A DNA stretch of 64,000 nucleotides from Nitrospirota bacterium. Its GTDB lineage: Bacteria > Nitrospirota > Thermodesulfovibrionia > Thermodesulfovibrionales > UBA6898. The notes under the pieces are model-generated. The model was not told the DNA's origin, made no database searches, and was given only the letters and a program-made list of their open reading frames with translations. This document shows, piece after piece, positions 37,523 through 53,468 of this stretch; within the stretch, counting starts at the first letter, position 1, and the number at the start of each line of letters is the position of its first letter. The DNA is taken from NCBI GenBank assembly GCA_016235245.1, contig JACRLO010000001.1, forward strand, positions 124,001 to 188,000. Direction: 5' to 3'. The position numbers and the translations under genes were made by a program.

Positions 37523-38575
37523 TTATGGTATCGCTTTGCGCCGTATTGCCCTGATCACAAATCCGACCACCAGAACAGTAGCCAAAACAATGAATGAGCC
37601 GATAATTCCGGAAACGGACGTGCTTGGCTCTATCGCCGGCCAAGTCTCTTCTTTTTTCCCTTCCTGAGCACTTTCAGCTTTTTCTCCGGGTTTTCTAAAC
37701 CCATAATCAGGAAGAAATGCCGTAATCCCCTGAATCCTTATTAATGCTGGCATCATGCCGTGTTCCTGCTCGGGGAGTTCCGGCTTCCCAAAAGTTTTTT
37801 CTATGGACCATTCAAGACCGTCAGGGTTTGAAGATGCAAACCAGGAAAGCGCGCCGCCAGTCAGAGCAGCTACAACCAGCAAGCTTATCAGGACCTTTCT
37901 GAGAGGGATATCAGGGGCAAGCGGCAGGGCCGATGATGTGCTTTCAAGGATTTCCGGTCTGGCAGTCTTGATGAAATTTATTACGCCCGCAGTTACAAGC
38001 CCCTCGACAAAACCAATTCCAAGGTGCACCGGTTGCATTAACAGAACGAAGGTACCGAATGGCAGTTCGCTCCTTCCCGACAGCATTGTCTCAATGACCA
38101 CGGAAAAAGCACCCAACTGAAGGGCGATCACGCCACTAATCAAGGCAGCTATCGTAATCCTTTTAGGGCTGCTTCCTGCCTGGACTAACGGCTTGTAAAT
38201 CAGGGGATAGGCTATGAAGCATGGGTATATGCCCAGGTTCCAGATATTACAACCCAGTGCAAGAAGGCCTCCGTCTGCAAAGAAAAGGGCCTGGACTGTA
38301 AGGACCGAGGCCATTACGATAAACGCAGCATAGGGGCCAAGTATTACCGCGAGAATCATACCACCGCCAAGATGCCCGCTTGACCCTGTTGCCGGAATCG
38401 TGAAATTGATCATCTGCGCTGCGAAGATGAAGGCCCCGAGAACGCCCATCAGCGGAACCATTCTTTCGTCCATAGAATCCTTCAACTTCTTTGAGCAATA
38501 GGCAATTGTTCCTAATGCTCCCGCCCAAAACGTTGTGCCAACTGCAGGTGAAAGTAAAGCATCTGCCATATGCAT
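37523..38575 (-). CDS. CbiM/NikM-type metal importer component fused to PDGLE domain
   Basis: The 350-residue protein starts MHMADALLSP; the N-terminal Met-His-Met is the metal-binding end of CbiM/NikM S-components of ECF transporters, with GSSGHLGGGMILAVILGP as the second conserved site. About six helices follow. After residue 220 a PDGLE domain (SNPDGLEWSIEKTFG) with a further helix replaces the separate NikN/CbiN partner. A GGGAGG site precedes the ATG. It imports Ni2+ or Co2+. No CbiQ or CbiO gene is in the window. The porin-like gene upstream is separated by about 10 bp, so they share an operon. Confidence 0.88.
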   Translation of the reverse strand: MHMADALLSPAVGTTFWAGALGTIAYCSKKLKDSMDERMVPLMGVLGAFIFAAQMINFTIPATGSSGHLGGGMILAVILGPYAAFIVMASVLTVQALFFADGGLLALGCNIWNLGIYPCFIAYPLIYKPLVQAGSSPKRITIAALISGVIALQLGAFSVVIETMLSGRSELPFGTFVLLMQPVHLGIGFVEGLVTAGVINFIKTARPEILESTSSALPLAPDIPLRKVLISLLVVAALTGGALSWFASSNPDGLEWSIEKTFGKPELPEQEHGMMPALIRIQGITAFLPDYGFRKPGEKAESAQEGKKEETWPAIEPSTSVSGIIGSFIVLATVLVVGFVIRAIRRKAIP

Positions 38576-40439: not shown

Positions 40440-40751
40440 TTACGCTCTGGGAGATATTCGTAATTGCTCTTCATTTCCTATCTCTGGCGACTTTGTCGTT
40501 AGCAATACACGCCAATAATATCCGGCTGCAAAGCCTCCAACTGTACCAGCAAGGAGAAATACGAAGAGCAGCAGATCCCCCTGGTCAGTATTTATCAAAG
40601 GCTCAGCGGCTTCCCTGCCATGCTCCTTTGCATATTTTTCAATGACAGATTCATCAACGCCGGGCCATTTCTCAGAAGCAAAGACGTGAGCGCTGCAGAT
40701 AGCTAAAAGCAGCAGGCAACTGCATAACACACAGATAGTGTTAAGTTTCAT
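40440..40751 (-). CDS. Small CbiN-like membrane protein of the cobalt importer
   Basis: The 103 residues contain a signal-type first helix, a short soluble part (KWPGVDESVIEKYAKEHGRE, DQGDLLLF) and a second helix (FLLAGTVGGFAAGYYW). This two-helix shape is that of CbiN-type auxiliary subunits that stabilise CbiM. The ATG overlaps the CbiM stop (ATGA), a strong sign of partnership. Exact family not certain. Confidence 0.7.
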   Translation of the reverse strand: MKLNTICVLCSCLLLLAICSAHVFASEKWPGVDESVIEKYAKEHGREAAEPLINTDQGDLLLFVFLLAGTVGGFAAGYYWRVLLTTKSPEIGNEEQLRISPRA

Positions 40752-41509
40752 ATTGCCACCTCCTCTGCTTTTAACACGCGCATCTTAACCAGCAGGTCAG
40801 GTCTCTTTTTATAGAGAAGGACAACCATGCCCGCTGTCATAGCGCCTTCGAGTATCCCCAAGGGAAGCTGCGTCGGAATAAATGCAATGGCAATTTTTGA
40901 AAATAGAGGGACAAACTGGGCATCGCCTTTTAGTCCTGCTGCAAGCTCCGCAGATGTCGTGATATAGGTTGCCCAGTCTGCAATGAGACCTGCAATAAAC
41001 CCTGAAACTGCAATGTTGACCCTAATACTTCGTAATGACCTGAAAGTAAGATAACCTGCAAATGAGCCCATAATTCCCATCGAAACTATGTTGGCGCCCA
41101 GTGTGCTGAGACCGCCATGAGCGAGAAAAAGGGCTTGGATGAGAAGAGCGACGGATGCCACAACTACGCTGATCGAAGGACCAAGCAAAATCGCCGACAG
41201 ACCTGTCCCGGCAGGATGTGAACAGGTGCCTGCTGTTGGCACAGGCACAGGCATGCAGGAGATGATGAAGACAACCGCAGCCATTAGACCTACGAGGGGT
41301 TTAAATGACAGGTCCATTGTAGCCTGTTTCTTAATACGATAAAGCCCGTAGGCAACAAATGGAGCAGCGGCCAGAAAGCATAATGCAGCCCAGTTGAATG
41401 GCAATATCCCTTCCGAGATATGCATTGCATAGGCATTTTCATGTGCCAGCGCCAGCAACGACAGGACAGTAAATGTAAAAAATATTTTCCGGATTGATTT
41501 AGTATGCAT
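40748..41509 (-). CDS. cbiM: Cobalt ECF transporter component CbiM
   Basis: The 253 residues begin with a cleavable signal (ending near NAYA) and then MHISEGILPFNW. In CbiM this Met-His follows the signal peptide and its N-terminus binds the metal. TCSHPAGTGLSAILLGP is the second metal site and about six helices follow. A cobalamin riboswitch upstream supports Co2+ as substrate. Partner ATPase and CbiQ are not in the window. Confidence 0.92.
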   Translation of the reverse strand: MHTKSIRKIFFTFTVLSLLALAHENAYAMHISEGILPFNWAALCFLAAAPFVAYGLYRIKKQATMDLSFKPLVGLMAAVVFIISCMPVPVPTAGTCSHPAGTGLSAILLGPSISVVVASVALLIQALFLAHGGLSTLGANIVSMGIMGSFAGYLTFRSLRSIRVNIAVSGFIAGLIADWATYITTSAELAAGLKGDAQFVPLFSKIAIAFIPTQLPLGILEGAMTAGMVVLLYKKRPDLLVKMRVLKAEEVAI

Positions 41510-41783: not shown

Positions 41784-41821
41784 TGCATAGATTCCTCCCT
41801 CGGGAATTGTTGGGTTATTTT

Positions 41822-41985
41822 GGATAGGTCTTCCGGCTTAGGGCTTATTGTACTTCTGTCTACTTGCCCGCCTTCCCATCAAAGTGTTACCTTTGACAGT
41901 GGCTTATGGTTGGGCTTTCGTTCCCTTTACGGCTGCGGGGCAGCGGGAGAATTTCACTCCTCTTCCCTGGCTTCCTCTGAAGCTA
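41822..41985 (-). promoter_or_regulatory. Cobalamin (B12) riboswitch
   Basis: On the minus strand the conserved core is clear: GTGAAATTCTCC, GCTGCCCCGCAGCCGTAA, AAGCCACTGTC, GATGGGAAGGC and AAGCCGGAAGACC (the B12-box order). Outer boundaries are approximate. It lies before the Cys-rich gene and cbiM, so cobalamin should switch off cobalt uptake. Confidence 0.93.
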
Positions 41986-42094
41986 CGAATGGTTCTTCTT
42001 GTTGATTTCTGTTTTATCGCCTCCTTCAATAAGCGTTGTTTGAACAAGCATATATTTTCTTATGATGATTTTTCAAGGTAATAAACTGAAAAAC

Positions 42095-42652: not shown

Positions 42653-43450
42653 TTATTTCTTTGCCGAGGGTGGGGTGGGTATATTTGACCCGTGGCATTC
42701 ATTGCAGTTTTGCTGCGCCGTAATGCCCATGTTGCTTGCAGGCTTCCAGTTAGATTTCTGCTTATAGGTGCCGTCCTTCCAGGCATTCAAGTCTTTGACA
42801 AGGGCGTATGCTACGCTCGCTGCAACTCGCGCACAACGGTCCTTTCTCTCCGGACTGCTTATGGCGTAGCCTGACTCTTTCATCCACTTGCCGACCGATA
42901 CATGACAAAGCGGTGAATTGCTGGTTGTCTGAATGATCTTTGCTTGTTGCCTCGGTTCTTTAGGAGAAAATGTCGGAAGCTTTGTTTCTGAGTACCACTG
43001 CAGGATATCCGCTCCGATTGCTGCCCCGTTTTCACATTCAGGTCCTGCTATTCTTGGTCCTATAATCGTATTTGCTACTATGTTTGCCCCTGCATTAGAA
43101 CCGCATACCGTTCCCCAGCCGACCATCCCTCCCTCAAGGAAAACATAAGCGTCAATAGGGAATGACTTATAGGGTTCGCCCACCTTTTCCCTGAGTTGGC
43201 TGAATACACTGCTGATTACCGCAGCGCCGCAAAAAACACGGTACCATTCGTTATAGGCCAGCTCAGCAGTCTTTTCAGGATCAAGCTTTTCATATGGCCA
43301 TGGCCATTTTTCTGTAGATCCGCCCTTTGCTTCTGCTTTTGACAAAAATCCCAGCCCCCCGGCTGTCAGTGCCGCAATTCCTGCAACTCCCGCTGCACCT
43401 TTGATAAGTCCTCTTCTTGATACATTTTCGTCTAAAAACTTCATGTCCAT
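42653..43450 (-). CDS. Tat-exported split-Soret-like cytochrome (C_GCAxxG_C_C family)
   Basis: From the ATG at 43450, eight bases after GGAGG (265 residues). The N-terminus has a twin-arginine signal (SRRGLIKGAAG) and a hydrophobic helix ending near AEAK. The body has the C_GCAxxG_C_C-type pattern (VFCGAAVISSVFSQL, TVCGSNAGANIVAN, PLCHVSVGKW) and ends with a CxxCH haem site (C249, C252, H253). This matches split-Soret cytochrome c of sulfate reducers. Role in electron transfer in the periplasm is inferred. tatA follows, and a switch-like leader lies upstream. Confidence 0.85.
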   Translation of the reverse strand: MDMKFLDENVSRRGLIKGAAGVAGIAALTAGGLGFLSKAEAKGGSTEKWPWPYEKLDPEKTAELAYNEWYRVFCGAAVISSVFSQLREKVGEPYKSFPIDAYVFLEGGMVGWGTVCGSNAGANIVANTIIGPRIAGPECENGAAIGADILQWYSETKLPTFSPKEPRQQAKIIQTTSNSPLCHVSVGKWMKESGYAISSPERKDRCARVAASVAYALVKDLNAWKDGTYKQKSNWKPASNMGITAQQNCNECHGSNIPTPPSAKK

Positions 43451-43535
43451 ACGCGTTACCTCCTCTAAGGTTTTTAGGACGTTTCCGCTTCTGATGAAAC
43501 GGATTATATAAAGCTCACAATTTCTACGTGTTTGT

Positions 43536-43589
43536 AAAAAAAGTGGCTCCACTCTGGAGTTATTTTTAGATAATTGCCGAAGTGGAGCC
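43536..43589 (-). terminator. Terminator hairpin competing with a folded leader
   Basis: On the minus strand GGCTCCACT (43589-43581) pairs perfectly with AGTGGAGCC (43553-43545), followed by ACTTTTTTT. The 5' arm overlaps the stems P1 and P2 of the upstream structure, so only one form can exist at a time. The 27-nt loop is long for a terminator. Confidence 0.6.
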
Positions 43590-44205: not shown

Positions 44206-44541
44206 TTAGCTAAAGTCCGGAAACGCCTTCAATGTGAGCAATCTGCCGTTGCCGATATCAATACTGACTGAAAGAATGCCGCCTTCAATGTACTGAATGG
44301 AAAAATCGCGAAAGCCGGTCTGTGCAAAGCGTTTCGCATTTGAAGGACACCCTCCCTGGCATCCGGCTATGCCTCGTGTCATTTTTGGGATAAGACTGTC
44401 GAGATCGAACCCATCAACACTGATGCCCTTTGAGGATGCAAACTGCACGATCTGTGTGATCATATTCTGAAGGTCATAATTAAACGGATTGTCAATCTGT
44501 ATGGGAAGAGTATCCTTGTCAATGCCTACCTCAAATAACAT
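44206..44541 (-). CDS. Conserved hypothetical protein with GCQGGCPSN motif
   Basis: This 111-residue protein has an N-terminal helix, GCQGGCPSNAKRF in the middle (two cysteines four apart) and a beta-rich end with FSIQYIEGGILSVSIDIG. AGAGAGGTGTTGA precedes the ATG. I know no function; the Cys motif could bind metal or a cluster. It is upstream and divergent from the tRNA-Cys gene, in the region of selenium- and sulfur-linked genes. Confidence 0.55.
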   Translation of the reverse strand: MLFEVGIDKDTLPIQIDNPFNYDLQNMITQIVQFASSKGISVDGFDLDSLIPKMTRGIAGCQGGCPSNAKRFAQTGFRDFSIQYIEGGILSVSIDIGNGRLLTLKAFPDFS

Positions 44542-44863: not shown

Positions 44864-44957
44864 GGGGAGTAAGGGGATGGTCCCCACCTGGTCTGCAAAA
44901 CCAGCGTTATAGCCATAAAATGGCTATTGTGTGTTCGATTCGCACTACTCCCCTCCA
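44864..44957 (+). tRNA. tRNA-Cys(GCA) with long variable arm, selenocysteine-tRNA-like fold
   Basis: The 94-nt gene folds as follows. An 8-bp acceptor stem GGGGAGTA/TACTCCCC. A D-arm GGGG-ATGGT-CCCC. An anticodon arm CTGGT-CTGCAAA-ACCAG with GCA at 44895-44897. A 7-bp variable stem ATAGCCA-TAAAA-TGGCTAT. A T-arm GTGTG-TTCGATT-CGCAC. Position 73 is U and CCA is encoded. GCA and U73 are the main CysRS identity elements. Ordinary tRNA-Cys has a short variable loop and 7+5 bp; here the 8+5 stack plus long arm recalls bacterial tRNA-Sec. It could also be drawn with a bulged U at 44946. Confidence 0.85.
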
Positions 44958-44982: not shown

Positions 44983-46278
44983 ATGTCATCAACACAGTTT
45001 GAGATTAAGAGTTATCCCGATATGTGGGAAAGTCTGGGAATGGATGTGGCAAGGTTTGAAAAGATGCGCTGTGTTTTGGGAGATGTTTTTCAGACTACGT
45101 TTCTTTCCCAGGAAAACCGTCCGCAGCGGATGGACTATTTTAACTGGATTGTCTCTGAAATTCACGGAGGCCGTATCAGGGAGATACTGGATGCAAAAAA
45201 GGAGGGCCGCCCGGTTGTGGGCACCTTCTGTGTGTATGTTCCGGAGGAGCTTGTTATTGCAGCAGGAGGTATCTGTATCGGGCTCTGCGGAGGCTCACAG
45301 GGTCCGATACCTGATGCAGAAAAAACCCTTCCAAGGAACATATGTCCCATGGTCAAGTCCGCTTATGGGTTCAAGGTCGCCAAGGTCTGCCCATATTTCC
45401 AGTCTGTTGATTTTGTGTACGGAGAGACGACCTGCGACGCCAAGAAAAAGACTTGGGAGTTGCTTAACAGAGAAGTGCCGACCTATGTGATGGAGATACC
45501 TCAGATGAAGCGAGAGAGAGACCGGACCCTCTGGTTTGAGGAGGTTAAGGACTTCAAGGCACAGATAGAGAAGGTCACCGGCAAGACAATAACTGCCGAA
45601 GCCGTTACTGAGGCAGTTAAGATCATGAACAATAAGAGAAAGGCCCTACAGCGTCTGAACAGGCTGCAGCACCACAATCCATCGCCCATAAGCGGGAAGG
45701 ATGTTCTTCTTATTGAGCAGATCGCATTTTACGATGATCCCGTGCGGTTTGCAGAAAAGGTGAATCTGCTTTGTGATGAACTGGACGAAAGGGTCAAAAA
45801 AGGTATAGCCGTTGCTCCTGCCAGTGCGCCGAGGGTCCTGGTTTCAGGCACGCCTATGGCGATGCCGAACTGGAAGGCCCACAACCTTGTCGAAAAGGCA
45901 GGCGGCATAGTGGTGAATGATGAAAGCTGCATCGGCACCCGCTATTTTAAAGACCTGATGGATGAGAATATGACTGACCTTGACAGTCAGCTCAAGGCAC
46001 TGACTGACCGGTACATGAAGATAGACTGCTCCTGCTTTACGCCAAATGACGACCGTGTTGATCAGGTTCTGAAGGAATATCGTGACTCCGGCGCACAGGG
46101 TATTCTTCACTATTGTCTTCAGTTCTGCCATACCTATAACATCGAGGCAATCAAGATCAAGGAGGCCTGTGAAAAGGCAGGGATACCGTTTCTTGCAATA
46201 GAGTCGGACTATTCGCCCGAGGATATCGGCCAGATGCAGACCAGGATAGAGGCATTTCTTGAGCAAATAAAGGGCTGA
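44983..46278 (+). CDS. Double-cubane-cluster anaerobic reductase (HgdB/BcrB family)
   Basis: The 431 residues match the 2-hydroxyacyl-CoA dehydratase D-subunit family in its single-gene, double-cubane form. It has many cysteines (GGICIGLCGG, ICPMV, VCPYFQ, TTCDAKK, DESCIG, DCSCF, HYCLQFCHTYNI) that could hold the [8Fe-9S]-type cluster. Such proteins do ATP-driven low-potential reductions with an activase. AAAGGAGAAATT precedes the ATG, 25 bp after the tRNA. The natural substrate is unknown. Confidence 0.9.
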   Translation: MSSTQFEIKSYPDMWESLGMDVARFEKMRCVLGDVFQTTFLSQENRPQRMDYFNWIVSEIHGGRIREILDAKKEGRPVVGTFCVYVPEELVIAAGGICIGLCGGSQGPIPDAEKTLPRNICPMVKSAYGFKVAKVCPYFQSVDFVYGETTCDAKKKTWELLNREVPTYVMEIPQMKRERDRTLWFEEVKDFKAQIEKVTGKTITAEAVTEAVKIMNNKRKALQRLNRLQHHNPSPISGKDVLLIEQIAFYDDPVRFAEKVNLLCDELDERVKKGIAVAPASAPRVLVSGTPMAMPNWKAHNLVEKAGGIVVNDESCIGTRYFKDLMDENMTDLDSQLKALTDRYMKIDCSCFTPNDDRVDQVLKEYRDSGAQGILHYCLQFCHTYNIEAIKIKEACEKAGIPFLAIESDYSPEDIGQMQTRIEAFLEQIKG

Positions 46279-46279
46279 C

Positions 46280-47017
46280 ATGGTAGTTGGAGTTGACCTC
46301 GGATCAAGGACAATCAAGGTAGCTGCTGTTGAAGACAGCCGCCTTGTTGATTTTCGGATAGCTGAGAGCGGCTACGATCCTCATCGCCAATCCCTTGAAA
46401 TGATAAAGGGATATCATCCGGCAAGAATTATTGCAACCGGATACGGCAGGCACCTTGCCAAGAGACATTTTGCTGATGACGTGATCACTGAAATAAAGGC
46501 GCATGCGCTGGGAGCCCGACACTTTTTTCCGGAATGCAGGACCATTGTTGATGTTGGAGGCCAGGATACCAAAGTCATAGCGCTTGACGAAAGCGGCAAG
46601 GTGCTCAATTTTCAGATGAATGACAAGTGCGCTGCAGGAACAGGAAGGTTCCTTGAGATTATGGCCTCGTCGCTCGGGTATGGCCTCTCTGAATTTGGCG
46701 CAGAGGCACTGAAGGGGAAAGGTGATGTCAGAATCAGTAATATGTGTACCGTCTTTGCCGAGTCAGAGGTGATTTCGCTCAAGAACCATGGGACACTCCC
46801 TGCTGATATTGCCAAGGCAGTGCATATCTCAGTTATTGAGCGGCTGGTGGCTATGCTTGCCCGTGTCGGATACGAAGACACCGTAGTCTTTACAGGAGGG
46901 GTGGCAAAGAATCCGGCTGCTGTAAATCTCCTGAAAGAAAGACTGGATATAAGAATACTGCTTCCGGAGCCTCCGGATATTGTCGGCGCACTCGGCGCTG
47001 CGCTTTATGGAACCTGA
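46280..47017 (+). CDS. Acyl-CoA dehydratase activase (HgdC/BadF family ATPase)
   Basis: The 245-residue ATPase has the ASKHA fold: DLGSRTIKVAAV at the start, VDVGGQDTKVIALD and FTGGVAKNPAAV. C117 in NDKCAAGTG and C156 in SNMCTVFAESEV are the ligands of the [4Fe-4S] cluster shared between two subunits. It passes electrons to the reductase encoded one base upstream, driven by ATP. Family assignment is firm. Confidence 0.93.
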   Translation: MVVGVDLGSRTIKVAAVEDSRLVDFRIAESGYDPHRQSLEMIKGYHPARIIATGYGRHLAKRHFADDVITEIKAHALGARHFFPECRTIVDVGGQDTKVIALDESGKVLNFQMNDKCAAGTGRFLEIMASSLGYGLSEFGAEALKGKGDVRISNMCTVFAESEVISLKNHGTLPADIAKAVHISVIERLVAMLARVGYEDTVVFTGGVAKNPAAVNLLKERLDIRILLPEPPDIVGALGAALYGT

Positions 47018-47033
47018 TGATAAGGATGTGCTT

Positions 47034-47873
47034 ATGATTGACAGCTCAATAATGCTTGATGATACTACCTTTGCGAAAGAGATGCTTGCAAAGCCATCGT
47101 TATCAAATGCTGACATGGTATTCGTTCTTCGCAATCTGCTTCGGATGAAATACTATCCTGTTGCAGTAAAGTTCTTCTTTGATCAGGATGAACTCAAGAT
47201 TTTTAAGCTAAATACCGAATTCAAGGGGTCGGCCCATCCGTTTACTTTTTGTCACTATCTTGCTGCCTCGCGTCAGAGAGGTGATATCCTGCTGACTGAG
47301 GCAAGGGGGATAGGATGTACAAATGCTCAGTATGTATTTGGCTGGCGGGAGTTCGATGAATCGGAAATCAAAAGCCATCAGAAATATGCGAAGGACAAGG
47401 CCCAGGCCGAGCGGATAGCGAGAAATAAAAAGCGATTAGGGCAAAGGCTTCTTGCTATTGCAACTGCGCCACTCCATAAAGCGTCTTATGTTCCTGATGT
47501 GATGCATGGGGTTTGCGATGTGCTGCAATCCTATCACTTGGGCAATGACTGGTCAGCAGCAATGGATACCTTTCCGTTTGAGATGACAATGACTGCGAAC
47601 AGCTCTGCATGTCACGGGGCTGTGTCTGTTTTCTTGAATAACAGGCCTAACATTACACCCATGTGCAGCGGTAGCTACACAGCAGGAAAGACAGAGCAGG
47701 GCGAACTCAACTGGATTTGGCCAGGAGATCAGCTTGAGCCTACTGTAAGATGGATGCTTGAACGCACAGTGCGAGACAAAGGGGTGTCTTTCCCTCGCAC
47801 GGGGGAAACATATCCCGGCTTTAATATGTGCAAACTCTGTCCGTTTCTTGTTTGGACAAAACCAAAAGAATAA
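47034..47873 (+). CDS. DUF169 family protein
   Basis: The 279 residues from the ATG at 47034 (AAGGAT upstream; an ATG at 47007 is an alternative that overlaps the activase) match DUF169: YYPVAVKFFF, FCHYLAASRQRGDILLTEARGIGC and SACHGAVSVFLN. Cysteines are spread along it and MCKLCPFLVW at the end has a CxxC. DUF169 proteins accompany anaerobic redox genes; function unknown. Its position behind the activase suggests work with the double-cubane reductase. Confidence 0.85.
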   Translation: MIDSSIMLDDTTFAKEMLAKPSLSNADMVFVLRNLLRMKYYPVAVKFFFDQDELKIFKLNTEFKGSAHPFTFCHYLAASRQRGDILLTEARGIGCTNAQYVFGWREFDESEIKSHQKYAKDKAQAERIARNKKRLGQRLLAIATAPLHKASYVPDVMHGVCDVLQSYHLGNDWSAAMDTFPFEMTMTANSSACHGAVSVFLNNRPNITPMCSGSYTAGKTEQGELNWIWPGDQLEPTVRWMLERTVRDKGVSFPRTGETYPGFNMCKLCPFLVWTKPKE

Positions 47874-47887
47874 CGCAAGGAGATATC

Positions 47888-48622
47888 ATGAATACAATGC
47901 ATAGGAAGGTTGCCGGTTATCTGTTGTTCTGCCTGCTCGCTCTCGTTTCTCAGGCAGCAGCGGATTACAGCCTCATTGATACAGCTCAACTAAAGGCAAT
48001 GTTCGACGCCAAGAAAGATTTTACACTTGTAGATGCACGGACAAAGGAAGAGTATGATGAGGCCCACATTGTGAAGGCCATTAATGTATCGGAAAAAGGC
48101 TTTGAGTCTTCGTCATCTCAATTACCTTCCGACAAGAACGCTCTCCTCGTCATATACTGTAACGGTGTCAAGTGCGGGAAGAGCAAAAAGGTCGCTGCCA
48201 AGACAACGGCCGCGGGATATACAAACATCACAATCTATGCTGATGGGTTCCCCGTATGGGAAGAAAAGGCATTGCCCATAACCGCAGGGCCTGATTATAG
48301 TAAGAAAATTGAAACAACCAAGCTCAAACCGGCAGAGCTGAAACAGATGATCGACAGTAGTGCAAAGGACTTAGTTATTGTGGATGTTCGGGATGAGTCT
48401 GAATATCGAGAAGGGCATATCCCCACTGCCATAAACATTCCGGTGGAAACTTTTGCAGCGAAGTCGGAAGTTCTGCCAAAGGAGAAGAAGATCATCGTTT
48501 ACTGTAATACTGGCGGGAGGAGTTATACTGCATATAGAAAGCTGATGAAGCTGGCTTATCCGAATATATATCAGACAATCTTTGCTGACTGGAAAGAGGC
48601 AGGGCAGCAGGTAGAGAAATAG
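47888..48622 (+). CDS. Exported tandem rhodanese-domain sulfurtransferase
   Basis: The start is the ATG at 47888 after AAGGAGATATC (244 residues). A signal peptide ends near QAAADY. The first rhodanese domain has C91 and C96 (YCNGVKCGKSKK); the second has C206 in VYCNTGGRSY. Both active-site loops keep the catalytic Cys, so each could carry a persulfide. It is likely periplasmic and may supply or remove sulfane sulfur (or selenium) for the neighbours. Confidence 0.9.
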   Translation: MNTMHRKVAGYLLFCLLALVSQAAADYSLIDTAQLKAMFDAKKDFTLVDARTKEEYDEAHIVKAINVSEKGFESSSSQLPSDKNALLVIYCNGVKCGKSKKVAAKTTAAGYTNITIYADGFPVWEEKALPITAGPDYSKKIETTKLKPAELKQMIDSSAKDLVIVDVRDESEYREGHIPTAINIPVETFAAKSEVLPKEKKIIVYCNTGGRSYTAYRKLMKLAYPNIYQTIFADWKEAGQQVEK

Positions 48623-48631
48623 GAGGTTAAC

Positions 48632-49219
48632 ATGGTAATCGACGCAAGAGATCAGGGCTGTCCGAAACCGGTTATGATGGCAGAAGAAGCCCTTTCGAAA
48701 ATCAAAGAAGGCATTATCGAGGTTATTGTTGATAATGAAGGTTCGGCGGATAACCTTGCATGGTTTGCAAAAAACCATGCTTTCTTTTCCGAGACAATCA
48801 GAGACGGCAACGACTGGCGCGTGAAGATAGTGAAAGGTTATGCATGCGCGCCCACAGCTGCGACCGAAAAAGCACAGGCGTCTGAGAAAACCTTATTTCT
48901 TGTGGTAGGTACAGATACGATGGGAAAGGAAGAAGAGCTTGGCAAGATTCTCATGAAAGCCTATTTTGAGACCATGAAGACCTACAAGCAGATTCCGCAC
49001 ACAATCTTTTTTCTGAACGCCGGCGTGAAACTTACCACTACCAATGCCGACATCTATCCGATTCTGAAAGAGATCGAGGCTATGGGTGTTGAAATGTATT
49101 CTTGCGGAACCTGCCTTAAGCATTACAACCTTGAGGGCGAGTTGAAGGTTGGACACAGAGGAACAACAAACCATATCGTAGAGGGCATGAAGGATTTTGA
49201 TAAGACCGTATGGATTTAG
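48632..49219 (+). CDS. yedF: YedF family selenium-metabolism protein (TusA plus DsrE-like)
   Basis: This 195-residue protein joins an N-terminal TusA-like domain (DARDQGCPKPVMMAEEAL, C10) to a DsrE/F-like domain with SCGTCLKHY (C158, C161). This TusA-DsrE layout is TIGR03527/YedF, found in genomes with selenium metabolism. AGGAGGTTAAC precedes the ATG and it follows the rhodanese gene by 9 bp. selD, selA or selB are not in the window, so a selenium role is inferred from the family. Confidence 0.88.
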   Translation: MVIDARDQGCPKPVMMAEEALSKIKEGIIEVIVDNEGSADNLAWFAKNHAFFSETIRDGNDWRVKIVKGYACAPTAATEKAQASEKTLFLVVGTDTMGKEEELGKILMKAYFETMKTYKQIPHTIFFLNAGVKLTTTNADIYPILKEIEAMGVEMYSCGTCLKHYNLEGELKVGHRGTTNHIVEGMKDFDKTVWI

Positions 49220-49314: not shown

Positions 49315-50208
49315 ATGGACATCTATCAGCTTCAGGTCTTCTCTTCGGTATACAGGCTTCGCAGTTTTTCAAGGGCCTCGGAAGAACTCCATATCACCCA
49401 ACCTGCAGTCAGCATGCATATCAAGAGGCTTGAAGAGGATCTTGGTATAAGGCTCTTTGATCGCTCAGGCCAAAAGACTATTCCAACAAAAGAGGCGGTC
49501 GTTCTCCATGAGCGTGCAGAGGAGCTCATAAGTAAGCTCAATGACATAAAAGACGACCTTAGACAAGAGAAATCCGATATAGAAGGCCTCCTGACCATAG
49601 GAACAAGCAGTTCAACCGGCGCCTATATGATCCCCTTTATCGCTGCCGAGTTTCAAAAACTCCATCCGAAGGTTTTTTTTCAGCTGGTTGTAAAGGGCGC
49701 CCCTGAAATCTATCGCCGCCTGATAAGCGGAGAGCTCCCTGTGGGCGTGGTCGAGGACAAGAAAGAGCGCGAAGGGATAGTTGTGCAGCATTCGATTATA
49801 GATGAAATGGTGCTTGTAGCTGCGCCTGAGCAGATCAAGAAGAAGGTAATAACCCCACTGGGTATCTTTCGCATCCCGCTTCTTATGCGGGAGGACGACT
49901 CGGACGCCCGAAAGAGCATGGAGAAGCAGCATATGCTGCATAATATAGCTCTCAAGGGGCTCAATGTTGTGGCGATACTCGGTTCCACCGATTCTCTGAA
50001 GGAGGCTGTCAAGGCAGGACTTGGAGCTGCGATCATCTCAAGGTTTGCAGTAAAAGGAGACCTTGAGGCAGGGCTCCTGGAGGAAATTCGCATCCGCGGC
50101 GTGAAAATGAAAAGACCCCTATATGTAGTTTCGAACAAGAATAGAACCCTGCCTCGAATCTACCAGTCCTTTCTTTTATATCTCAAGGATAAACTTCCTT
50201 CTTCCTGA
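49315..50208 (+). CDS. LysR-type regulator, selenium-metabolism type
   Basis: The 297 residues have a LysR winged HTH (FSRASEELHITQPAVSMHIKRLEEDL) and an effector domain with GTSSSTGAYMIPFIAAEF. It resembles the regulator at 36538-37419. It is 95 bp after yedF on the same strand and so probably controls this operon or the next one. The inducer is unknown. Confidence 0.85.
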   Translation: MDIYQLQVFSSVYRLRSFSRASEELHITQPAVSMHIKRLEEDLGIRLFDRSGQKTIPTKEAVVLHERAEELISKLNDIKDDLRQEKSDIEGLLTIGTSSSTGAYMIPFIAAEFQKLHPKVFFQLVVKGAPEIYRRLISGELPVGVVEDKKEREGIVVQHSIIDEMVLVAAPEQIKKKVITPLGIFRIPLLMREDDSDARKSMEKQHMLHNIALKGLNVVAILGSTDSLKEAVKAGLGAAIISRFAVKGDLEAGLLEEIRIRGVKMKRPLYVVSNKNRTLPRIYQSFLLYLKDKLPSS

Positions 50209-51497: not shown

Positions 51498-53468
51498 ATG
51501 AACAGTAAGAAAATATTGTTTATTACCCCGCCCTACCACTGCGGAGTTGTCGAGGTGGCAGGCAGATGGGTGCCGCTGACGTTTGTTTATCTTGCAGGTG
51601 CGGTCCGGAAGGCAGGCTTCGAGCCGGTGATCTATGACGCAATGACAAAGCATCATGGCTTTGCAGAGATCGAAGAGCGAATCAGGAAGGAAAACCCAAG
51701 GTTTGTTGCGACCACAGCGATAACCTCTACCGCCCCGGATGCGCTTGAGGTGCTGCGTATTGCAAAGGATATAAATCCGGAGATCATTACGATTATAGGT
51801 GGAGTCCACCCCAACTTTATGTACGGGGAAATACTTTTAAGCGGCTCCTGCGACTATGTGGTGCGGGGTGAAGGAGAAGAGACACTCCCTGACCTGCTTA
51901 TATCGCTTCAGGAGGGCAGCAACCCTTTACGCGTGGCCGGAATCGCATACAAGGAGGGGCATAAGATCCTGGCTACCAGCAAGAGGCCTTTTATTGAGGA
52001 CCTCGACAGTCTTTTAACTGCGTGGGACCTCATCGAGTGGAAGGACTACCGCTATTTTGTTATTCCAGGAAGCAGATTGGGAGCGGTCAGCACTTCGAGG
52101 GGCTGCAACCATAACTGCACCTTCTGTTCTCAACAGAAGTTCTGGAACCAATCCTGGCGCGGCAGGAAACCTGAGAGTGTCGTTGCAGAGATAGAAGAGC
52201 TCTATACCTCATACGGAGTGAATGTTATTTTGCTGCCGGATGAGTATCCGACAAAGGACCGGCAGAGGTGGGAGAGGCTGCTTGACCTTCTGATAGAAAA
52301 AGGCCTTGGTGTGCATCTGCTCATGGAGACCAGGGCGGAGGACATACTGCGCGACAGGGACATCCTTCATAAATACAGGGCTGCGGGGATCATTCATGTG
52401 TACATTGGGGTGGAGGCCACAAACCAGGCGACTCTTGACCTGATAAAAAAGGATGTATCTGTTGAGACCGGGGTTGCTGCGCTCAATCTCCTGCATGCTC
52501 ATGGCATTATCACCGAGACGAGCTTTATTCTCGGGTTTCCTCATGAGACGAAAGAATCCATCGAGCGGACCCTTTCTCTGGCAAAGCATTACAATCCTGA
52601 TTTCGCGCATTTTCTTGCCCTTGCACCGTGGCCTTATGCGGACATGCACAAGGAGATGAAGCCTTTCATTGTAGATAAAGACTACAGGAAATATAACCTG
52701 ATAGATCCGGTGATCAAACCTGCGGCAATGACACTGCATGAAATAGACCGCGCGATAATATCCTGTTACCAGCAGTTTTATATGAGCAAGATGACCGAAA
52801 TCATGTCTATGGATGACAAATTTAAAAAAGACTATCTTATCCGCTCCATGAAACTGATGATGTCGAGCTCCTTCATTAAGGACAAGATAGGAAGCCTCGG
52901 CGTCATTCCGCCCCAAGTCATGACCCTTCTTAAGACAGTGGAGCAGTCATCTGTATCGGTTGAAGGCCAGTCGGACTTCGTTCTTATGGCCGCGAGATCG
53001 ATTGCTATCGATGCGCCGGTTGATGCGGTCTTTAGTCTTGTGGCGGATCCTGCCAACTGGCCCAAGTTTATCTCCGGGCTCACAGAGATCAGAGGAATTG
53101 ATTCCGACACGATAACCAATGGCAGTTCCTTCGGCTGGACGTACAGGATCGGCGGATTCACTGTCAGGGGCAATGGCACAGTAGTTGATTATGAAAACGG
53201 CAGGGCGCTCACACTCCGGATGCATAACATGATGCCGCTCGAAAAGACAATCCGGTTCGAGGAGTTCGGGGCAGGCACAAAACTCTTTGCTGAGGTTGGC
53301 CACCGCTCGCCAGGAAAGGCGTTAAGTGTTGTATTCAATCTTATACGACGGACTGTAAACACCATGGAGGCCAATGCAGTCCTTGCAAAGGTTAAGGAAT
53401 TATGTGAGGGCAGGAAGGAAACCGAAATGCCGGTCACTTCAAGGTGTCCGGTTAAACGCTTTCTGTAA
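51498..53468 (+). CDS. B12-binding radical SAM protein fused to SRPBCC domain
   Basis: The 656 residues have a cobalamin-binding Rossmann domain (about 1-130, ending with IIGGVHPNFMYGE), then the radical SAM core with CxxxCxxC at C203, C207 and C210 (CNHNCTFC), a linker, and an SRPBCC/polyketide-cyclase-like domain from about residue 497 (APVDAVFSLVADPANWPKFI). The layout recalls BchE-type cyclases, which act on tetrapyrroles or similar large rings; the SRPBCC end suggests binding of a hydrophobic ligand. The reaction is unknown. Confidence 0.9.
   Translation: MNSKKILFITPPYHCGVVEVAGRWVPLTFVYLAGAVRKAGFEPVIYDAMTKHHGFAEIEERIRKENPRFVATTAITSTAPDALEVLRIAKDINPEIITIIGGVHPNFMYGEILLSGSCDYVVRGEGEETLPDLLISLQEGSNPLRVAGIAYKEGHKILATSKRPFIEDLDSLLTAWDLIEWKDYRYFVIPGSRLGAVSTSRGCNHNCTFCSQQKFWNQSWRGRKPESVVAEIEELYTSYGVNVILLPDEYPTKDRQRWERLLDLLIEKGLGVHLLMETRAEDILRDRDILHKYRAAGIIHVYIGVEATNQATLDLIKKDVSVETGVAALNLLHAHGIITETSFILGFPHETKESIERTLSLAKHYNPDFAHFLALAPWPYADMHKEMKPFIVDKDYRKYNLIDPVIKPAAMTLHEIDRAIISCYQQFYMSKMTEIMSMDDKFKKDYLIRSMKLMMSSSFIKDKIGSLGVIPPQVMTLLKTVEQSSVSVEGQSDFVLMAARSIAIDAPVDAVFSLVADPANWPKFISGLTEIRGIDSDTITNGSSFGWTYRIGGFTVRGNGTVVDYENGRALTLRMHNMMPLEKTIRFEEFGAGTKLFAEVGHRSPGKALSVVFNLIRRTVNTMEANAVLAKVKELCEGRKETEMPVTSRCPVKRFL

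Follow-up and report, generated by a model that had tools for sequence, protein, structure and literature searches.

A tRNA-Cys(GCA) of the selC* class with an 8/5 acceptor branch, linked to selenium-handling genes in Nitrospirota

The tRNA gene and its neighbors

In the window, i.e., the whole 64-kb stretch of DNA analyzed here, ARAGORN identifies a tRNA-Cys gene with anticodon GCA at exactly 44864–44957 on the forward strand, and no further tRNA genes. The tRNA has a body like that of tRNA-Sec. Additional cysteine tRNAs with a tRNA-Sec-like body, U73 and a GCA (or UCA) anticodon are documented as the “selC*” class (PMC7609411), so the first-pass annotation, made from the sequence alone, was sound in stating that rare minor cysteine tRNAs of this type had been reported in bacteria. 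The tRNA and its neighbors are as follows:

44206–44541 (−): small divergent protein; a 44% identical relative (L039:4310-4639) adjoins a second selC* copy
44864–44957 (+): selC*-type tRNA-Cys(GCA) with an 8/5 acceptor branch, long variable arm, U73 and encoded CCA (ARAGORN, Rfam, minimum-energy cloverleaf, covariation)
44864–44871 (+): 5′ strand of the 8-bp acceptor stem, GGGGAGUA (sequence and minimum-energy fold)
44895–44897 (+): anticodon GCA (ARAGORN, position 32 of the gene)
44909–44927 (+): variable arm, an 8-bp stem with an AAA loop (sequence and minimum-energy fold)
44929–44945 (+): T arm, GUGUG-UUCGAUU-CGCAC, with a 5-bp stem and no A51a bulge (sequence and minimum-energy fold)
44946–44957 (+): 3′ strand of the acceptor stem, UACUCCCC, followed by U73 and CCA (sequence)
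44983–46278 (+): double-cubane-cluster anaerobic reductase, starting 25 nt past the tRNA (NCBIfam NF040772, 496 bits, cut-off 350)
46280–47017 (+): partner ATPase of the acyl-CoA dehydratase activase type (TIGR00241, 224.7 bits)
46980–47873 (+): DUF169 protein (Pfam PF02596; ORF as listed, with the true start probably further in)
47828–48622 (+): two-domain rhodanese, a Cys-type relative of rhodanese selenoprotein families (Pfam PF00581; NF041203 and NF045694 below cut-off)
48632–49219 (+): YedF, a sulfurtransferase-like selenium metabolism protein (TIGR03527, 190 bits, cut-off 110)
49315–50208 (+): LysR regulator of the selenium-metabolism type (LysR_Se), just under the curated cut-off (NF040786, 247.7 bits, cut-off 250)

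The 25-nt gap between the tRNA and the reductase contains no terminator-like site, and the tRNA is probably co-transcribed with the selenium-handling genes. In the sections of a comparative genomics study that we draw on here (PMC5322559), YedF, this LysR subfamily and a 2-hydroxyglutaryl-CoA dehydratase-like subunit are tied to selenium use, as are an activase, DUF169 and a transglutaminase-like protein; we found no mention in those sections of a selC*-type tRNA beside these genes.

Several other features of the window were recorded. A split-Soret-type cytochrome (C_GCAxxG_C_C) is encoded at 42653–43552 (−), and its relatives adjoin selC* in 14 of 70 loci. A BchE-like B12-binding radical SAM protein with a C-terminal polyketide-cyclase-like domain is encoded at 51498–53468 (+), and a relative lies directly 3′ of selC* in locus L112. 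A cobalamin riboswitch at 41812–41997 (−; RF00174, 70.2 bits) is upstream of genes resembling those for cobalt/nickel transport membrane proteins (40748–41509 and 37523–38575).

A tRNA-Sec-like body with cysteine identity

The first-pass annotation had proposed that the gene combines CysRS identity (GCA anticodon and U73) with a tRNA-Sec-like body, and ARAGORN, Rfam and the sequence agree on this. It had also suggested a scan with the tRNA-Sec model; the gene matches the Rfam model RF01852 from end to end with 47.5 bits, just exceeding the gathering score of 47. The 8-bp acceptor stem (GGGGAGUA/UACUCCCC) and the 5-bp T-stem (GUGUG/CGCAC, with one U-G pair) that it described are both borne out by the sequence and by the minimum-energy fold. 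The D-arm (GGGGA-UGG-UCCCC) is compact and Sec-like, and the anticodon arm is CUGGU-CUGCAAA-ACCAG. The long variable arm also stood, but its stem, given as 7 bp, has 8 bp in the minimum-energy fold (AUAGCCAU-AAA-AUGGCUAU), with 7 bp applying if a 5-base loop is preferred. Folded by itself, the sequence adopts an 8/5 cloverleaf with this 8-bp variable stem as its minimum-energy structure (z −4.8), and none of the shuffled sequences folded as well. The putative identity elements for CysRS are GCA, U73 and G1-C72.

The host genome (G000), a 3.25-Mb draft that is 96% complete, was searched for other cysteine and selenocysteine tRNAs, as the annotation had advised, and has both a normal tRNA-Cys and a true selC. 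The tRNA is thus not the only tRNA-Cys of the organism, the circumstance in which the annotation would have given up a specialized role: a normal, short-armed tRNA-Cys is encoded at G000:C20:27745, the only normal tRNA-Cys gene found, and a true tRNA-Sec(UCA), scoring 70.9 bits to RF01852, at G000:C7:39335. A second long-armed tRNA-Cys(GCA) is located at G000:C20:72111 (L039:4112-4205, reverse strand). Three substitutions separate the long-armed copies from each other: an A-U to G-U change and a C-G to U-G change, both of which keep pairing, and one change in the variable loop. Given the normal tRNA-Cys, the tRNA-Sec and the second copy, the window tRNA is an additional tRNA. A LysR gene and a gene related to that of the small divergent protein flank the second copy, which is followed by a short, degraded remnant of a rhodanese gene and an intact yedF.

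Conservation and spread of selC*

We built a covariance model from the two long-armed copies and searched 230 genomes of the same taxonomic class. There were 80 matches scoring at least 55 bits, in 77 of the 230 genomes (about a third); ordinary tRNA-Sec scores lower with this model, at about 46–52 bits. ARAGORN recognizes 27 of the 30 best loci, all 27 with anticodon GCA; for the three that it misses, the alignment shows GCA as well. GCA, U73 and CCA are kept in the relatives examined. Over 43 aligned sequences, host tRNA-Sec included, 97% of stem cells are paired, compared with 51–64% in slid controls, in an alignment fitted to the covariance model, which leans toward structure. Changes on both sides occur in 21 of 30 pairs, covariation is seen in all five stems, and the five pairs of the T-stem are 100% paired. 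On the evidence of this alignment, the covariation in every stem shows the window tRNA to be maintained by selection.

Independent matches come from contigs of Thermodesulfovibrio, Thermodesulfovibrionales and other Nitrospirota; a small number are from Chloroflexota and Actinobacteriota. In a survey of 197 Chloroflexota genomes, only 2 have selC*. A pattern search of contigs gave 73 matches, about ten of them unrelated. Genomes of the same genus yielded no strong match. Two selC* tRNAs are 119–127 nt long, with a greatly extended variable arm (L144:5271-5397 and L132:2174-2292), and one selC* gene lies in a tRNA array (L092).

Linkage to selenium genes

Neighbors of selC* were assigned by tblastn with the proteins of the window or a few others. 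At least one selenium-linked gene (YedF, LysR_Se, double-cubane reductase, SelD or SelB) lies within 1.5 kb of 39 of 70 distinct selC* genes. Within the same distance of 43 control tRNA loci there is no genuine selenium-linked gene, with only one short LysR-like match and EF-Tu matches. Extending the distance to 5 kb brings the number to 43 of 70; the remaining 27 loci lack such a gene within 5 kb, and many of these are cut by contig ends. YedF is found within 5 kb at 32 of 70 loci, at 24 of them downstream on the same strand and at 13 with selC* no more than 300 nt upstream. LysR_Se is found at 21 loci, 16 of them with the regulator upstream on the same strand, with matches at 40–48% identity that could include other LysR subfamilies. 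The activase (11 loci), the reductase (10), SelD (6) and selB (6) also occur within 5 kb.

The linkage recurs in Chloroflexota (L167, L178, L190). At L167, selC* has a TusA-like gene on one side and YedF on the other, and a gene that resembles YedE (named by eye) is also close by. In three Actinobacteriota loci (L146, L175, L188), a VKOR-like gene, also named by eye, is directly 3′ of selC*, next to a cysteine-cluster gene. These data support the conclusion that selC* belongs to a selenium-handling module comprising YedF, LysR_Se, the double-cubane reductase and its partner, SelD and sometimes selB. Neither this neighborhood nor the link to selB, which lie in the flanks of the tRNA and in related genomes, featured in the first-pass annotation. 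We found no description of this neighborhood; the review of the class (PMC7609411) does not cover YedF, selenium metabolism or operons, and papers from 2016–2018 may note it.

A genome from another family (G032) has the same tRNA type and a reductase 93% identical to that of the window, whereas its CysRS paralog is 60% identical. Because of this difference, the comparison suggests that the tRNA-headed operon may have moved between families as a unit.

SelB and CysRS as possible partners

A single SelB is found in most genomes of the class and likewise in most of those with selC*; five genomes of one Nitrospirota family (f10) have two or three. At six loci, all from this family, selB is directly downstream of selC*(GCA), less than 300 nt away on the same strand (L237, L238, L239, L240, L148 and L150, from genomes G099, G100, G105, G112 and both selC* contigs of G113). 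The proteins encoded there, which we refer to as SelB*, form one clade (100/98) nested inside the SelB of family f10. SelB* keeps the residues of the Sec/aminoacyl pocket, and its altered conserved residues are mainly in the C-terminal winged helices, which in known SelB are the part that binds the mRNA hairpin (PMC8124441).

There is no selB at the window locus, and no SelB was found in the host draft genome. SelB is present in all seven genomes of the same genus that were searched. It was not found in 5 of the 77 genomes with selC*, the host included, all five of which are drafts, versus 18 of the 153 others. Since the host has tRNA-Sec, an assembly gap is the likely but unproven explanation.

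A CysRS paralog without the anticodon-binding domain (P0001; 405 amino acids; L055:1507-2724, reverse strand; G000:C18) was considered as a dedicated partner enzyme of selC*. It is 30% identical to the housekeeping CysRS and occurs in 36 of the 230 genomes. We rejected it as its distribution does not track that of selC*: selC* occurs in 15 of the 36 genomes with the paralog versus 62 of the 194 without, and the genomes of the same genus that lack selC* all carry the paralog.

Possible functions

We favor, tentatively and with somewhat less than even confidence, the reading that selC* is a functional, additional tRNA-Cys that acts as a cysteine-loaded adaptor within the Sec/SelB branch and is connected with selenium handling; the shape of its body and its gene linkage point in this direction. 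Housekeeping CysRS would charge it with cysteine, as GCA, U73 and G1-C72 suggest. The 13-bp acceptor/T branch and Sec-like D-arm would make it a client of SelB, instead of or besides EF-Tu; this dependence on SelB is what we infer from the tRNA and its linkage. UGC/UGU codons would then receive Cys from this tRNA in a context regulated by selenium, making it a Cys counterpart of the Sec decoding branch. Against this reading stand the single SelB of most selC* genomes, the five selC* drafts in which no SelB was found and the 27 loci without a selenium-linked gene within 5 kb, as well as the following two observations. EF-Tu antideterminants are known for E. coli tRNA-Sec, and none of that type is evident in the window tRNA. 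Folding scans of the linked genes (34 YedF and 14 split-Soret) found no SECIS-like or structured region after Cys codons.

A bolder version, which we consider unlikely, is that selected UGC/UGU codons receive Cys (or Sec) through SelB from a GCA tRNA with a SelB-type body. Selenium would govern the production of this tRNA along with that of YedF and, in one family, of a dedicated SelB paralog with an altered mRNA-binding domain. If true, a single cell would read one sense codon in two different ways. Insertion at odd codons, which the first-pass annotation had left as a possibility, is not favored: the relatives checked all have GCA, which reads UGC/UGU and not UGA, and opal suppression is therefore argued against. 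The selenium clusters in Nitrospirota and Chloroflexota, the extra SelB and the GCA anticodon point to the selenium/SelB branch and away from stop-codon suppression. Moreover, the linkage provides candidate partners (SelB, SelB*, YedF and LysR_Se) that make the role of selC* testable.

Other explanations differ in what they make of the body and of the linkage. The tRNA might be an ordinary extra cysteine isoacceptor that works through EF-Tu and increases Cys decoding for the cysteine-rich redox proteins of the module, its Sec-like body being inherited baggage. Its GCA anticodon serves the same codons as that of the normal tRNA-Cys, for which a single gene was found, and the neighbors are often cysteine-rich redox proteins, i.e., the split-Soret cytochrome at 14 loci, the double-cubane reductase at 10 and the VKOR-like protein at the Actinobacteriota loci. 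However, an ordinary isoacceptor would need neither linked selenium genes nor an extra selB copy, and compensatory changes preserve the 8/5 body, the compact D-arm and the long arm, all of which recur in other phyla; we regard this explanation as somewhat unlikely. That selC* instead carries selenocysteine strikes us as very doubtful. CysRS would have to mischarge free Sec onto selC* and SelB to capture it, leading to Sec at UGC/UGU without SelA. In vitro, CysRS is able to load tRNA-Cys with Sec (PMC11431864), and both the Sec pocket kept in SelB* and the linkage of selC* to selenium genes would fit, but no SECIS-like signal follows the Cys codons of the linked genes and the same genome encodes a true tRNA-Sec(UCA).

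A role outside the ribosome is quite unlikely. Kept off EF-Tu, selC* could donate Cys to the YedF/reductase pathway or signal the Cys or selenium state to it, or the gene could be an operon leader RNA, as the reductase start 25 nt past the window tRNA and the 13 loci with YedF less than 300 nt downstream might suggest. Yet neither a donor nor a leader would need the anticodon loop, U73 and CCA, which are strictly kept. In addition, selC* is also found upstream of selB, the split-Soret and VKOR-like genes and unrelated genes, and in the tRNA array at L092; these neighbors vary too much for the leader RNA of one gene, which we reject. Finally, a functionless relic of tRNA-Sec or tRNA-Cys in decay is scarcely credible: spread is patchy, with genomes of the same genus lacking a strong match, and the rhodanese gene after the second copy is degraded, but both copies are intact, differing only in a loop and at sites that still pair, and covariation among relatives is strong.

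Comparison with known systems

The selC* class of tRNA-Cys was reportedly described by Mukai et al. in 2017 (Nucleic Acids Res 45:2776), and an 8/5 form of cysteine tRNA is said to be part of that account. The window tRNA has the marks of the class: a tRNA-Sec-like body, U73 with GCA, and presence in addition to a normal tRNA-Cys. The hallmark of selC* is a modified 8/4 branch with a bulged A51a, the bulge being dispensable for charging (PMC7609411). The window tRNA, by contrast, has a fully paired 8/5 branch, with a T-stem of 5 pairs and no A51a bulge, and is therefore filed as an 8/5 variant rather than a typical member. It is a real, additional tRNA-Cys of the selC* class, in the 8/5 form. 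Members have been reported in anaerobes of the Firmicutes, Thermodesulfobacteria, Nitrospirae and Proteobacteria, with a second selB following in some lineages (PMC7609411). The selC*–selB* loci of family f10, with anticodon GCA, parallel the pairs of Syntrophobacterales and Desulfobacterales described there. A dedicated CysRS* without the anticodon-binding domain is reported for Desulfobacterales only (PMC7609411); unlike selC* of that order, Nitrospirota selC* has no linked dedicated CysRS*. The review makes no mention of YedF, LysR_Se or the double-cubane reductase, to which selC* is linked in Nitrospirota.

The window tRNA resembles bacterial tRNA-Sec (selC, RF01852) in its 8-bp acceptor stem, 5-bp T-stem, long variable arm and compact D-arm. 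It differs in having U73 rather than G73 and GCA rather than UCA, and so lacks the UCA and G73 (SerRS identity) that mark tRNA-Sec. Mukai et al. reportedly described, in 2016, an Aeromonas salmonicida tRNA-Sec with the sense anticodon GCA that is charged with Ser and then converted to Sec. This tRNA shares a Sec-type body and cysteine anticodon with the window tRNA, the U73 of which, however, argues against SerRS. Lastly, allo-tRNAs (8/4 and 9/3), found in the same searches for tRNA-Sec, also have a non-canonical acceptor branch; whereas their branches have 12 bp and their identity is mostly Ser, the window tRNA has a 13-bp branch and Cys identity.
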